Assembly (NCBI GenBank): GCA_001795385.1
Contig: MGOU01000027.1
Location: forward strand, 1-34,050
Length of the DNA: 34,050 nt
Direction of reading: 5' to 3'
Source: Clostridiales bacterium GWD2_32_19
GTDB lineage: Bacteria; Bacillota; Clostridia; Lachnospirales; UBA12420
Shown here: piece after piece, positions 15,811-34,050 of the stretch
Layout: every line of letters begins with the position of its first letter
How positions within the stretch are numbered: the first letter of the stretch is position 1
Program-made: the position numbers and the translations under genes
Notes under the pieces: model-generated
Told to the model about the DNA's origin: nothing
The model's input: the letters and a program-made list of their open reading frames with translations, nothing else
Database searches by the model: none

Positions 15811-17058
15811 ATGAAACCATTAGCAGATAAATTTAGACCTGAGACTCTTTCAGATGTGATAGGGCAAGAGCACCTAATCGCAACTGGCAAACCTCTACGA
15901 CGTATAATTGAGGCAAATAGAGAAGTAAACATGATTTTTTATGGACCCCCAGGGGTGGGTAAGACTACAATTGCTAATATAATTGCTAGTAAAACCAATA
16001 AAAAATTATATAAGCTGAATGCAACAAATGCATCAGTAAAGGACATAAAAGCTATCGTGGACGACATGGATAGCTTACATACCATGAATGGAATATTACT
16101 TTATTTAGATGAAATCCAAAATTTTAATAAAAAACAACAACAATCTCTACTTGAGTATATAGAAAATGGTAAAATAACACTGATAGCAAGTACAACAGAA
16201 AACCCATATCAGTACGTATATAAAGCTATACTTAGCCGCTCTATGGTTTTCGAATTTAAGAATTTAAACAAAAGTGATATTGAGAAGCTTGTAAAACAAA
16301 TATTTACAAAGCTTGAAGTAAGTGACACATACAAACAAATTTCATATGATGAGGACGTTTTGAGTTATATAGCAGATATGAGTGGTGGTGATGCAAGGAG
16401 AGCTATCAATATAATAGAACTTGCATCCATTTGCTCAAAAGATGAAATAGGTAATGTGAACCTAAGTGTGAGTATACTTGAAGAGTATGTAAATAAAAAA
16501 TATCTTGATTACGACAAAAACGGAGATAGCCACTATGATATATTAAGTGCGTTTCAAAAATCGATAAGAGGTTCTGACCCAGATGCGTCTATTCACTATC
16601 TTGCGAGACTTATAAAAGCAGATGATTTACTATCCATTTGCAGGAGATTACAAGTTATAGCATGTGAAGACATAGGACTAGCATACCCAAGTGCAATAAC
16701 GATAGTCAAAGCTTGCACTGATTCAGCCAAGGAACTCGGTTTCCCAGAGGCAAGAATACCACTAGCTGAGGCTACTCTACTCCTAGCTACTGCGCCAAAG
16801 TCGAACTCAGCTTACATGGCACTAGATAAAGCTATGGCAGATTTGGATACGAAAGAAATTGGGGACATACCAAGACACTTGAAAAACACCAATTTTATAG
16901 AGCCGAGGTATAAGTATCCTCATGCTTATTCAAATAATTATGTAGAACAGCAATATTTGCCGGATAAGATAAAGAATGCTGTTTACTATGAATCTGGTGG
17001 AAATAAGCTAGAACAAATGGCGAAAGAACATATGAATAAGATAAAGGGATTACTTTGA
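15811..17058 (+). CDS. rarA: Replication-associated recombination protein A
   Basis: AAA+ ATPase related to clamp loaders that acts at stalled replication forks (MgsA/RarA family). The 415-residue protein starts MKPLADKFRPETLSDVIGQEHL, has Walker A GPPGVGKT at 45-52, Walker B LLYLDEIQNFNK, the sensor-1 region TTENPY and a C-terminal tetramerisation domain with LIKADDLLSICRRL and ACEDIGLAYP. The ATG at 15811 fits AAAAAGGAG (15793-15801) better than the TTG at 15802. Length is close to the family norm. The terminator is about 115 bases downstream (17174). Confidence 0.94.
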   Translation: MKPLADKFRPETLSDVIGQEHLIATGKPLRRIIEANREVNMIFYGPPGVGKTTIANIIASKTNKKLYKLNATNASVKDIKAIVDDMDSLHTMNGILLYLDEIQNFNKKQQQSLLEYIENGKITLIASTTENPYQYVYKAILSRSMVFEFKNLNKSDIEKLVKQIFTKLEVSDTYKQISYDEDVLSYIADMSGGDARRAINIIELASICSKDEIGNVNLSVSILEEYVNKKYLDYDKNGDSHYDILSAFQKSIRGSDPDASIHYLARLIKADDLLSICRRLQVIACEDIGLAYPSAITIVKACTDSAKELGFPEARIPLAEATLLLATAPKSNSAYMALDKAMADLDTKEIGDIPRHLKNTNFIEPRYKYPHAYSNNYVEQQYLPDKIKNAVYYESGGNKLEQMAKEHMNKIKGLL

Positions 17059-17307
17059 TAAGTAAGGTAACAAGGATCCGCAGAGGAATCTCTTTTATAA
17101 TAAATGTTGGGTGTAAAAAAATGTAATCTATTTAGTAAGCAGTCAATATAAAGTGCCTTTATGCAACGATGAGCTGATTCCTGTATTATACAGGAATCAG
17201 TTTTCTAGTTTTCACTGATAAGTTAATAAATTTACAATTAACATCGATCAGTTCAAATAGTAAAATAATACATTTTGTCCTAAAACTTACAAAAAAAGTA
17301 AAAACTG
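17059..17307. other. Gene-free gap after rarA
   Basis: No gene is supported. Apart from the terminator at 17174 the interval is AT-rich with no repeat I can pair elsewhere in the window. The kinase promoter begins at its right end. Confidence 0.7.
17174..17204 (+). terminator. Terminator of the rarA transcript
   Basis: Perfect 12-base stem CTGATTCCTGTA/TACAGGAATCAG with a 3-base loop, followed by TTTT and a second T-rich stretch. Its position implies a 3' untranslated region of about 115 bases. Confidence 0.9.
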
Positions 17308-17336
17308 TTGACAAATGTTAAAAAAAATTATATAAT
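17308..17336 (+). promoter_or_regulatory. Consensus promoter of the kinase cassette
   Basis: TTGACA (17308-17313), 17 bases, TATAAT (17331-17336). Both hexamers are perfect. The following A-rich leader resembles the one upstream of the gene at 19646. Confidence 0.85.
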
Positions 17337-17376
17337 AAATAAAACAATGCAGGACAATACAAAGGGGAAATGACTT

Positions 17377-18798
17377 ATGATAATGAATATGAAACTAGAG
17401 GATAAGACAAAATATATGTATGAGCCAAGAGGGGCAAACACACCCAAATATTGGTTAAAACTACCTAATGGTCCTTTGGGCTTATTCAAGCCGGATAATA
17501 ACAACGCAGCATTAGCAGAAGATTTGGCATATAGAGTTGGAGGACTCGTGGGTGTAAGATGTGCAAAGACATATTATTGTGAATTGGATACAAATGGCAA
17601 AAAAATGGTAGGTTATTTAAGTGAGGGTATATTAAGATGGCAAAAGGATGTAAAAGGACTTACAAATGAAGAAATAGATAATAACAAAGATCAAGAGTTA
17701 AAAGAGATGCATACTATAATTCAAGGAATATATCCTAAATTTAATTCTAAAGAATTAAAGTGTGAAGATACAGGAAAGATTTTCGATATTGAAATGTTAT
17801 GTGATGTAATGGATAAGGTCGATCCTAAGTCAAAAGTAGATATGTTAAAGATGGCTATATACGATGCTTGGATAGGTAATACTGATAGAAATCCAGCTAA
17901 TGAAGGTATGGTAGATGATTTAATATCTAGAGATGTATATTTTGGAGAGTTGTATGATAATGCAACAACATTTGGAGCTAACATATTTGAAAAAAATAAT
18001 ATGTTACAACTTATATCAGATATGAAGAAACACATTAAAGATAAGGATGTAGCAAAACTCTATGAAATGGAGCAAAGTAGTGATGTTAAAAAGTATTTAG
18101 AACTTAGCAGGCTTATTACAAAAAGGCCATTTGAAGAAGTGAGAGGATTAGGGTCATTAGAAGAGTTAATGGAATATTATAGTGATAATATATCTTCTAA
18201 TGATAAAGAAGATATATTATCATGTGCATGTATTTATAAATTAAATATTCTTAATCAATTATCACAATCTAGGGATGTAATAGAATATAATAGGTTGAAA
18301 AGTATTGATTCACAACCAATAAAAGCATATGTGGGTTTAAAAGATAAATATAATAGAATAATACATGAACAATGTGTGTCAAAATTAGGTGTGTATGGAG
18401 AACTACATACAAACTTTGATGGAATAATTGATTATATTACTTTGAATTATAATGATAATGAAGAAATAAATGAGCTGTTGAATAATATAAGTAATGTAGA
18501 TAGGAAATCTATTTTAAGACAGTTTAGTGATATAGAAACTGAAAACAAAGGTTGTAAGTCGTTAGAAAATATAAAAAGAGTTCAAAGTTTTGTTCCAAAT
18601 TTCTTATTGGAAAGAGCAGAGGCAATAGAGATAACAAGAGGTTTTAACAATGATTTTTTTTTAGAAAGGGACAAACTTCAAGTTAAAGAAATACTAGACT
18701 CAGATGTGGGTGAATTTGATGTAGAGAATATAGGTTTGATAGGCCCTGAAAGTTACACTGAAATTGAAGGTGCAGGATTAAAAGCTGCGGGGTTATAA
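17377..18798 (+). CDS. HipA-like kinase lacking the N-terminal subdomain
   Basis: Predicted protein kinase of the HipA/CtkA-like fold. In the 473 residues I see an N-terminal lobe with RGANTPKYWLK (18-28) as the likely nucleotide loop and the ATP-contacting K38 in GLFKP; then helix ALAEDLAYRVGGLVGV; the catalytic loop GNTDRNPAN (D170, N175); and the metal-binding D194 in LYDNATTFG. The HipA N-terminal subdomain that normally precedes this is absent; the next two genes resemble it. The last roughly 260 residues are mostly helical and unrecognised. AAAGGGG (17361-17367) precedes the ATG. There is no HipB-like repressor gene nearby. Targets are unknown; HipA kinases typically phosphorylate tRNA synthetases or other translation factors. 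Confidence 0.7.
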   Translation: MIMNMKLEDKTKYMYEPRGANTPKYWLKLPNGPLGLFKPDNNNAALAEDLAYRVGGLVGVRCAKTYYCELDTNGKKMVGYLSEGILRWQKDVKGLTNEEIDNNKDQELKEMHTIIQGIYPKFNSKELKCEDTGKIFDIEMLCDVMDKVDPKSKVDMLKMAIYDAWIGNTDRNPANEGMVDDLISRDVYFGELYDNATTFGANIFEKNNMLQLISDMKKHIKDKDVAKLYEMEQSSDVKKYLELSRLITKRPFEEVRGLGSLEELMEYYSDNISSNDKEDILSCACIYKLNILNQLSQSRDVIEYNRLKSIDSQPIKAYVGLKDKYNRIIHEQCVSKLGVYGELHTNFDGIIDYITLNYNDNEEINELLNNISNVDRKSILRQFSDIETENKGCKSLENIKRVQSFVPNFLLERAEAIEITRGFNNDFFLERDKLQVKEILDSDVGEFDVENIGLIGPESYTEIEGAGLKAAGL

Positions 18799-18820
18799 TA
18801 AAAAAATTGTGAGGTATAAG

Positions 18821-19192
18821 ATGAATAGTCTAAATTTAAATGTTTTTTGGAAGGATTTAAGCGGTTATATACACAAAATCGCTAAGATGGGTATAAAAGG
18901 TAGCAAATTTGAATTTTTATATGATCAATTTGGTGCAAATGAAGCTAGAGAATCTGGATTTAATTGTGTGAGTACATTCCCAGATATAGATAAAGTATAT
19001 TTTGGAGATGAATTTCCAGAATTTTTTAATTCTAGAATACCGAGTAGAAGTAGATCAGATGTTTTCAATGGTTTAGGGATACCAGTTAATGATATTGAGG
19101 AATATATAAAAGAAACTGGAGCTAAATTAGCAACAGATAATATAAGTTTTGGAATAATAGAGGATGAAACAGAAGAAGAAACAGTGGTATAA
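18821..19192 (+). CDS. HipS/HipA-N-like small protein, paralogue 1
   Basis: A 123-residue protein whose ATG (18821) follows GAGG (18811-18814), 22 bases after the kinase stop, so it is very likely co-transcribed. Landmarks are an N-terminal strand LNVFW, then FEFLYD, GF at 46-47, FPDIDKVY (53-60), FFNSRIP (68-74), R78/D80 and KLATDNIS (102-109). The pattern of F-Y, a hydrophobic FF.N.(L/I)P block and a final TGG.L.D-type motif resembles HipA N-subdomain 1, called HipS when encoded separately in HipBST systems. The C-terminus is acidic (EDETEEE). It may restrain or target the kinase; that is inference from adjacency. Confidence 0.6.
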   Translation: MNSLNLNVFWKDLSGYIHKIAKMGIKGSKFEFLYDQFGANEARESGFNCVSTFPDIDKVYFGDEFPEFFNSRIPSRSRSDVFNGLGIPVNDIEEYIKETGAKLATDNISFGIIEDETEEETVV

Positions 19193-19218
19193 ACATTTAT
19201 GTTATCGGAGGGATTATT

Positions 19219-19563
19219 ATTAATGTAGATATTAATGTATATTGGATAAGCTTTGGTGGAAAAGGGAAATATATGATAGGAAAGTTGTGGAATCAGGATA
19301 ATACATACAAGTTCAAATATAATTTAGAGGAATTAGAGAATGCAAGAAAAGATGGTTTTGATATATTAAAACCTTTTTTAGATGATAAAAAATTATATAG
19401 TAGTGATAAAATGTTTGAATTCTTCGCGAACAGAATACCAGATAAAGGTAGAATGGATATATATAACGCATATGGTATAAATACATATAATCCGATTGAG
19501 TATCTAAAGATAACAAAGGGTAAACTTGCCACAGACAATATAAGTTTAGAAGTAGTAAGTTGA
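19219..19563 (+). CDS. HipS/HipA-N-like small protein, paralogue 2, likely ATT start
   Basis: A paralogue of the preceding gene. The first in-frame ATG (19273) would remove the N-terminal strand, but the frame is open upstream and encodes INVDINVYW, matching LNVFW of paralogue 1. No ATG, GTG or TTG exists in frame before 19273. GGAGGG (19207-19212) lies six bases before an ATT at 19219. Starting there, 115 codons including the stop give 114 residues, and GF 46-47, Y60, FF 68-69, RIP 72-74, R78, D80 and KLATDNIS 102-109 fall at exactly the same residue numbers as in paralogue 1. ATT is a rare start codon (known in infC). A mutated ATG is the alternative. Confidence 0.6.
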   Translation: MNVDINVYWISFGGKGKYMIGKLWNQDNTYKFKYNLEELENARKDGFDILKPFLDDKKLYSSDKMFEFFANRIPDKGRMDIYNAYGINTYNPIEYLKITKGKLATDNISLEVVS

Positions 19564-19583
19564 GTATTTAATGTCGAAAAATA

Positions 19584-19610
19584 TTGACAAATGTAAAAAA
19601 AGTATAAAAT
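19584..19610 (+). promoter_or_regulatory. Promoter-like leader of the 156-codon gene
   Basis: TTGACA (19584-19589) followed by TAAAAT (19605-19610) with a short 15-base spacer. The stretch TTGACAAATGT plus an A-run and the later ACAAGGGG closely resemble the leader of the kinase gene (17308-17367), suggesting duplication and shared control. Confidence 0.5.
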
Positions 19611-19645
19611 ACAATTAATGCAAAATACACAAGGGGGACATCATA

Positions 19646-20116
19646 ATGAGTTATATAGTTGATGAAGTTAATAAACTAACTTATGAAGGGGAAATATCAA
19701 AATTGCAACAATCACCAATTGAAGTAATTATTAGGGAGAGTAATCAACCTAAAGAATGCCTGCGTGTGACATATATATCAAATAAAGATAATATTGATTC
19801 TGTACATATAGAAGAAATACTTGGCAATGATAAACCCGGAGATATGATTTCACTATTTTTTGATGGAAGTATGGTGGGAGAAGAAGAGCATAAAGGAAAA
19901 TCATTAGAATCAAGTAAGGTTGTAAGTAATGGAAATGGAGATGTATTCGTAACTACACCTTTAGGAGAGTCTGGGAATACAGCAGGTATTTTATTTAACA
20001 ATCAGGATGAAGTACATGTTTATGAACTTACAGGCGATGAGACTCGTCAATCATTAAAATGTAGCCATTATATTCCAGAACAAGTTATAGTTCCAGATGA
20101 TGAAGTGACACTTTAA
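19646..20116 (+). CDS. Unrecognised acidic protein of the kinase cassette
   Basis: A 156-residue protein I do not recognise. It is acidic, seems to be mostly beta strand by its alternating pattern, has no signal peptide, no membrane helix and no cysteine cluster (two scattered Cys). AAGGGGGAC before the ATG is a good ribosome binding site. It lies 82 bases after the HipS-like paralogue 2 behind a leader related to that of the kinase. It could be a substrate, an immunity-like partner or an unrelated passenger. Confidence 0.7.
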   Translation: MSYIVDEVNKLTYEGEISKLQQSPIEVIIRESNQPKECLRVTYISNKDNIDSVHIEEILGNDKPGDMISLFFDGSMVGEEEHKGKSLESSKVVSNGNGDVFVTTPLGESGNTAGILFNNQDEVHVYELTGDETRQSLKCSHYIPEQVIVPDDEVTL

Positions 20117-32923: not shown

Positions 32924-34050
32924 GTGCGCCAGTTCGGTGCTAATATATAGTTGGTGAAAACCCAATCTAGTAAGACCTAGCCAGTCGCTAGTATCTAGTC
33001 TTGGAGCCGAAACGGTGACGATAGGTTTAAGCGTAGACAAGAAAGAGCGCGAGCCGTAATGTGTGAACATGAAGCAAGTTGAGCCTCGTAAGGATTAAAA
33101 GATAGAAGCCGATACTCTTCAGGTAGTAGCAGGCAATAACACACAGACGATAAGGCAAGGAAGTGTGATTTCTATCGGGGTCGAAGAGCATGGCGAGCGC
33201 ATCGAAACATAAAATATATTAAGCATACCTGGGAGATCTGTAGTTATTTTTTTACAGAAGTCGGATTAGTTCATAGTAGCAATGAGATATATGAAAGTAT
33301 ACGGAGCCAAGGGACTAACATAATAATCGTTTCTGAAGTAAAACATTAGCACACTAGAGGTGAGAAAACAAATGGAAAATGAGACTAAAGAAATAAAAGA
33401 ATTAATAAACAAACATAAAAGACTGCAAACACTAATGTATTTAGTAAACAAAGAAACATTACTAATGGAACACAAGAGACAGAAAGTGAATAAAGCAAGT
33501 GGTGTAGACAAAATGACAAAGGAAAAGTATAGCACCAAAAAGGAAGAAAATATAGAAGAACTACTGAGGAAAATGAAGGGGTTTAGTTATAAACCACAAC
33601 CAGTGAGGCGAGTGTATATACCTAAAGTAGGAAGTGATAAGCTAAGACCGCTTGGAATACCAGCATATGAAGACAAGTTAGTACAAGGAGTAATGGCAAA
33701 TATACTAAATGAAATATACGAACAAAAGTTTTACGGCTTCTCATATGGATTTAGACCGAACAAGAACTGTCATCAGGCGATAAAAGAAGTAAATAAAATC
33801 ATAATAGAGAAGAAAATAAACTACATAGTGGATGCAGATATAAAAGGATTCTTTGATAATGTAGACCAAAAATGGCTTATGAAATTTCTTGAGCATGACA
33901 TACAAGATAAGAACTTTCTAAGGTATATAGTAAGGTTTCTAAAAGCAGGAATAATGGAAGAAGGAGAGATACAAGAAAGTGAAAAGGGAACTCCACAGGG
34001 AGGACTGATATCACCGATACTAGCAAACATCTATCTGCATTATGTACTAG
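32924..34050 (+). mobile_element. Group II intron, 5' part, cut by the window end
   Basis: The ribozyme starts with the group II 5' consensus GTGCGCC at 32924-32930. The next 440 bases are GC-richer and highly structured with no open frame (domain I and following helices), as expected, and a reverse transcriptase gene begins at 33372 in the domain IV position. The 3' end (domains V and VI) is beyond the window. The upstream exon is noncoding sequence 3' of the lipoprotein gene, so the insertion does not break a gene. I cannot assign the intron class. Confidence 0.85.
33372..34050 (+). CDS. ltrA: Group II intron reverse transcriptase/maturase, partial
   Basis: The frame is open from ATG 33372 to the window edge (226 codons seen; about 420-600 expected in full). 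It shows the group II RT order: ASGVDKMT at about residues 42-49, RPLGIPAYEDKLVQ at about 89-102, FYGFSYGFRPNKNCHQA, the first catalytic block VDADIKGFFDNV at about 148-159, and GTPQGGLISPILANIYL at about 205-221. The YADD box would lie just outside the window. AGAGGTGAG precedes the start. It mediates splicing and retrohoming of the surrounding intron. Confidence 0.93.
   Translation, partial: MENETKEIKELINKHKRLQTLMYLVNKETLLMEHKRQKVNKASGVDKMTKEKYSTKKEENIEELLRKMKGFSYKPQPVRRVYIPKVGSDKLRPLGIPAYEDKLVQGVMANILNEIYEQKFYGFSYGFRPNKNCHQAIKEVNKIIIEKKINYIVDADIKGFFDNVDQKWLMKFLEHDIQDKNFLRYIVRFLKAGIMEEGEIQESEKGTPQGGLISPILANIYLHYVL

Follow-up and report, generated by a model that had tools for sequence, protein, structure and literature searches.

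The four-gene cassette that lies between rarA and a TIGR03960 radical SAM gene in the window (the whole 34,050-nucleotide stretch analysed, from Clostridiales bacterium GWD2_32_19) probably holds a divergent hipJS-like kinase/antitoxin module of clade XI (hipIN/hipJS; PADLOC PDC-M03) in which the HipS component has been duplicated. The cassette is likely to be of the toxin-antitoxin or defence type. Three of its features are new: a diverged tandem pair of HipS genes, an extension of the kinase and an orphan fourth gene.

ORF reading confirmed the four frames of the cassette (17308 to 20116) at about the positions given in the original prediction, position 17308 being the first base of the promoter listed in the table. 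The G+C content inside the cassette is 28–29%, compared with 33–37% in most of the surrounding intervals. As had been proposed, no HipB is present: rarA/mgsA lies upstream, no HTH gene adjoins the cassette and none was recognised within it by ORF inspection and family-profile searches.

Table. Features of the cassette and of the split kinase genes found in related loci (positions are those of the window unless a locus is named)
Feature	Position	Strand	Basis or remark
Terminator-like hairpin	17171..17203	+	3' of the upstream rarA gene; sets the cassette apart from rarA
Sigma-70-type promoter of the cassette, TTGACA-17-TATAAT	17308..17336	+	12/12 consensus match
HipA/CtkA-fold Ser/Thr kinase without HipA N-subdomain (predicted), 473 aa	17377..18798	+	Profile and fold matches; residues 1–300 kinase core, ~300–473 extension without relatives
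HipS-like protein 1 (S1), 123 aa, without HIRAN domain	18821..19192	+	PDC-M03B N-terminal half; model fold
HipS-like protein 2 (S2), without HIRAN domain	19219..19563	+	PDC-M03B; Couple_hipA; S1 paralogue
Promoter-like TTGACA + A-tract + TATAAA/TAAAAT, 5' of the fourth gene	19584..19610 (approximate, by eye)	+	
Orphan acidic protein, 156 aa	19646..20116	+	Module membership inferred from position only
Variable slot between rarA and the TIGR03960 gene	17046..20115	.	Cassette absent from sister genome G001
Split HipJ-like kinase gene	L085 5748-6669		
Split HipJ-like kinase gene	L100 5721-6627		
Split HipJ-like kinase gene	L103 5721-6627		
Split HipJ-like kinase gene	L114 5682-6606		Identical copy L116 4034-4958
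Split HipJ-like kinase gene	L119 222-1155		
Split HipJ-like kinase gene	L125 5688-6633		

The kinase (P0001) carries all the landmarks first pointed out in its sequence (K38, GNTDRNPAN and LYDNATTFG), and the suggestion that it lacks the HipA N-subdomain was borne out by both profile and model. P0001 matches the PADLOC profile PDC-M03A (2.4e-19) and no Pfam family. Among the PDB sequences, a profile built from P0001 and 13 relatives recovers the kinase cores of CtkA (3.9e-20), Legionella HipT and HipA. In the structure comparison the model fits CtkA (Z 19.2, rmsd 3.8, 255 aligned residues) and HipT(Lp) (Z 14.9), at a middling model confidence (mean pLDDT 55 overall, mostly 70–90 at residues 20–190). 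Residues K38, D170, N175 and D194 are invariant among the aligned relatives, and P0001 is presumably a kinase in activity. No sequence relatives of the extension (residues ~300–473) were found and its pLDDT is mostly below 50; therefore no reading of its fold is offered. P0001 forms a very long branch in the kinase tree, and its grouping with kinases of uncultured Bacilli (94/90) was set aside because both are long branches. Single-sequence searches of phages, plasmids and viral contigs gave no close relatives of the cassette.

The two small proteins encoded downstream had been taken for HipS-like paralogues, which the searches uphold. In S1 and S2 the similarity to PDC-M03B covers its N-terminal part, which corresponds to HipS (1.6e-16 and 6.8e-22, respectively). 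The two proteins are paralogous to each other (36% identity, E 1.3e-18); a duplication of the antitoxin gene probably gave rise to the pair. The matches to PDC-M03B end near position 120 of 232–250, and the HIRAN half is absent from both proteins. S2 also matches Pfam Couple_hipA (5.5e-4, just under the gathering score). The model of S1 is confident (pLDDT 89.7) and, far from falling outside the HipA-N fold, matches HipS(Lp) of Legionella (Z 11.1), E. coli HipS (Z 10.3), the HipS-like protein HI_0666 of H. influenzae (Z 8.0) and the N-subdomain of Shewanella HipA (Z 7.3), the next, unrelated fold reaching a Z of only 3.5. The resemblance of both small proteins to HipS is thus well beyond chance, shown for S1 by its modelled fold as well and for S2 by sequence.

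The beginning of S2 allows two interpretations. Its homology extends upstream to 19225 and no ATG, GTG or TTG is found in frame before 19273; therefore S2 would either start at an in-frame ATT near 19219, preceded by GGAGGG at 19207–19212, or start at the ATG at 19273 and have lost its first beta strand. The protein would measure ~115 residues in the former case and 96 residues (19273–19563) in the latter. The HipS-invariant residues of the family alignment (F32, Y34, F53, F69, R72 and D106) are retained in both copies, so each of them probably binds the kinase. The loop that faces the kinase active site in solved HipS structures reads PSRSR in S1 and PDKGR in S2, the PDKxR-type consensus being retained in S2 and not in S1. 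In the aligned loop neither copy has an equivalent of Trp65 of E. coli HipS.

No relatives of the fourth protein were detected in Pfam, NCBIfam, PADLOC, PHROGs or the PDB sequences, nor in phages, plasmids, viral contigs, 196 related genomes or the fetched loci. Its gene has a promoter-like sequence of its own, which also occurs 5' of other genes of the genome. This promoter type (TTGACAAATG, an A-tract and a TATAAT-like element) stands before several unrelated genes of the genus (in the window at 17308 and ~19584, and in L002, L004, L005 and L217). Similar upstream stretches found elsewhere by DNA search were discarded, as they reflect only this shared promoter type before unrelated genes. 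All four genes occupy one variable slot, which supports, and does not prove, that the fourth belongs to the module.

The slot itself, between rarA and the TIGR03960 gene, is a place of swapped cassettes. In the sister genome G001, where the flanks show 86–88% DNA identity, the corresponding stretch is replaced by 3.9 kb encoding two paralogous DHH-domain proteins and a 158-residue orphan (L217 2903–6310, G001:C30), and in G002 a 258-residue orphan precedes the TIGR03960 gene. The searches gave no close relative of the complete cassette against which to gauge selection on the four genes or their joint inheritance. Elsewhere in the window, positions 33360–34050 hold a group II intron reverse transcriptase/maturase that runs off the contig end.

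A scan of GTDB genomes and viral contigs yielded 87 fetched kinase loci, and in 83 of them a HipS gene lies directly downstream of the kinase, an association that the original prediction had proposed to look for. Among these 83 pairs, 51 have a HIRAN domain and 32 have none detectable (a few of these 32 being truncated at a contig end or diverged in the tail), so that HIRAN-less partners are common in kinase-first modules. Two HipS genes side by side were seen in none of the 83, and when 383 genomes of the order were searched with a profile, an adjoining pair of strong HipS matches appeared only in the genome of the window. A weaker parallel is offered by L161, from the same bacterial order, where HipS-like ORFs flank the kinase on both sides; in L092 a similar second HipS gene lies 2.8 kb away. 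The genome of the window has a second locus (L014 5565–7250, G000:C20), of hipIN type, with an intact HipN and a kinase whose N-terminus is out of frame near an A-run. The PDC-M03A/B profiles match a complete hipIN pair; the name PDC-M03 was not found in the literature searched.

Other relatives illustrate the range of settings. Another species of the genus carries a broken hipIN-like remnant composed of a kinase fragment, a HipS and a HIRAN-like fragment (L205 814–1546, G002:C53). Relatives of the kinase also occur in viral contigs, and the C. difficile phage phiCDKH02 (Clostridioides phage) encodes a complete hipIN pair adjacent to the integrase gene (L225 3050–4639). In uncultured Bacilli/Tenericutes (L049–L053 and L057) a kinase of 368–383 residues and a HipS of 115–117 residues occupy a conserved position on the chromosome, where they follow a PDZ-protease gene resembling spoIVB; this suggests that the pair is kept vertically.

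In seven relatives of the HIRAN-less type a single additional C breaks the kinase gene, always at the same codon, an AAA-CGG site; no such break was seen in the window. The site reads TA(T/C)AAA-C-GG(A/T)AGAATTGG in the split genes, with TTCAAACGGAAGATATGG in L085, and most intact relatives have TATAAAGGAAGAATTGG at the corresponding position. Near-copies aside (L100/L103 and L114/L116), the split kinases are 49–75% identical among themselves, and they are otherwise fully open. CGG codons are very rare in the loci concerned (0–2 uses per 686–3076 codons counted). Six of the seven genomes contain a single copy of the motif; the sequence in L085 departs from the search pattern. Since a shared extra-C site, otherwise open frames and a rare CGG codon are the expected traces of it, we propose a conserved programmed +1 ribosomal frameshift in this toxin-antitoxin-type kinase as a candidate.

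In the explanation that we prefer, the cassette encodes first a HipT/CtkA-like Ser/Thr kinase and then two diverged HipS-domain proteins without HIRAN. In the solved systems HipS inhibits HipT, and in HipBST it does so by binding near the Gly-rich loop and blocking the kinase (PMC10627512, PMC9325769). E. coli HipS acts via Trp65, placed beside the kinase active site (PMC10627512), and in the case of Legionella HipS a loop-to-helix change blocks ATP binding (PMC9325769). By analogy with HipBST, each HipS of the cassette would bind to the N-lobe of the kinase by the Gly-rich loop and keep the kinase inactive; the tryptophan wedge is not claimed, because both copies lack this residue. A trigger would remove or displace HipS, and the freed kinase may then phosphorylate an essential host factor and stop growth, as in a toxin-antitoxin system or in abortive infection. 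HipA/HIRAN gene clusters have been predicted to act in phage defence (PMC11706625); here such a role is hinted at only by the relatives found in phage genomes and among PADLOC's candidate systems. The literature searched yielded no experimental study testing a hipIN or hipJS module. The families and folds, the kinase and HipS residues kept, the gene order of 83 of the 87 loci, the phage and viral relatives and the accessory slot speak for this explanation, whereas the long branch of P0001 and its want of a Pfam match, the missing Trp65 and the first strand of S2 without a canonical start speak against it.

The same data can be read in other ways. The two HipS copies may have different jobs, one inhibiting the kinase and the other serving as a sensor, a decoy or a substrate-recruiting subunit in place of HIRAN, which would make the cassette a three-part switch. 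The low identity of S1 and S2, both still open and with the family-invariant residues, their different loops at the site facing the kinase active site in solved HipS, and the HipS-like ORFs on both sides of the kinase in L161 are in line with this division of roles. However, no tandem pair exists among the 83 relatives and plain redundancy explains the data equally well, and we regard the division as unlikely. Were it real, the cassette would allow kinase inhibition to be separated from sensing in modules of the hipIN/hipJS type. A broader version is a four-component switch: a pair of specialised HipS subunits would act jointly with the extension of the kinase and with the orphan protein, and together they would replace the HIRAN DNA sensor by another trigger. 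We consider this version clearly unlikely.

Loss of HIRAN, a lost S2 start and a fast-evolving kinase could alternatively be signs of an eroding module with little function left. The long branch of P0001 and the want of a canonical start for the first strand of S2 would fit such decay, as would the broken hipIN-type genes in the same genome (L014 kinase N-terminus) and in the sister G002 (L205). Against it, none of the four reading frames is interrupted, the promoter matches the consensus perfectly and the catalytic and HipS-invariant residues are intact; we consider erosion very unlikely. We give still less credit to the view that the cassette is no toxin module and that its kinase regulates host processes, with the HipS-type proteins as regulatory subunits. 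The best-scoring relatives (L049–L053 and L057) do share their upstream neighbour across genomes, unlike a mobile defence gene; yet the cassette sits in a variable slot, a single-sequence search of the two other genomes of the genus found no relative of the kinase, and other relatives reside in phages.

Compared with known systems, the duplicated-HipS module that we favour has its closest solved kinase fold in CtkA of Helicobacter pylori, which differs in being devoid of the extension after residue 300. To our knowledge, CtkA has no HipS partner. The HipBST systems of E. coli O127:H6 and Legionella share with the cassette the HipT-like kinase fold and the HipS fold (for S1 by model, for S2 by sequence only), but they have HipB upstream and the order B-S-T, in contrast to kinase-HipS-HipS without HipB, and their Trp65, which many HipS proteins share and some lack, has no counterpart in the cassette. 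Clade XI Hip kinase modules resemble it in the core lacking N-subdomain-1 and in the HipS-like gene directly downstream. The hipIN module consists of the HipI kinase followed by HipN (HipS-HIRAN), and hipJS of the HipJ kinase followed by HipS; hipIN is the suggested ancestor of hipJS, which would have lost the HIRAN domain (Gerdes et al. 2021, PMC8262856). With hipIN and PDC-M03 the cassette shares the PDC-M03A and PDC-M03B matches and the gene order, but hipIN has a C-terminal HIRAN on its putative antitoxin, which both of the duplicated HipS are missing. In its published organisation, hipJS resembles the cassette in that the kinase is encoded first and consists of a core without N-subdomain, a HIRAN-less HipS follows downstream and HipB is absent. 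Thus the arrangement of a split HipA announced as new in the original prediction is not new in its kinase-first order without HipB, because this organisation is already published for hipIN/hipJS (PMC8262856) and matched by PADLOC PDC-M03; its novelty stands for the tandem HipS pair, for the extension of the kinase and for the fourth gene, the orphan. While hipJS comprises two cistrons, one for a lone HipS and one for a kinase from the short families of 279–321 residues (PMC8262856), the cassette combines tandem HipS, a 473-residue kinase and the orphan, and its duplicated HipS widens the range of described kinase-first Hip modules.
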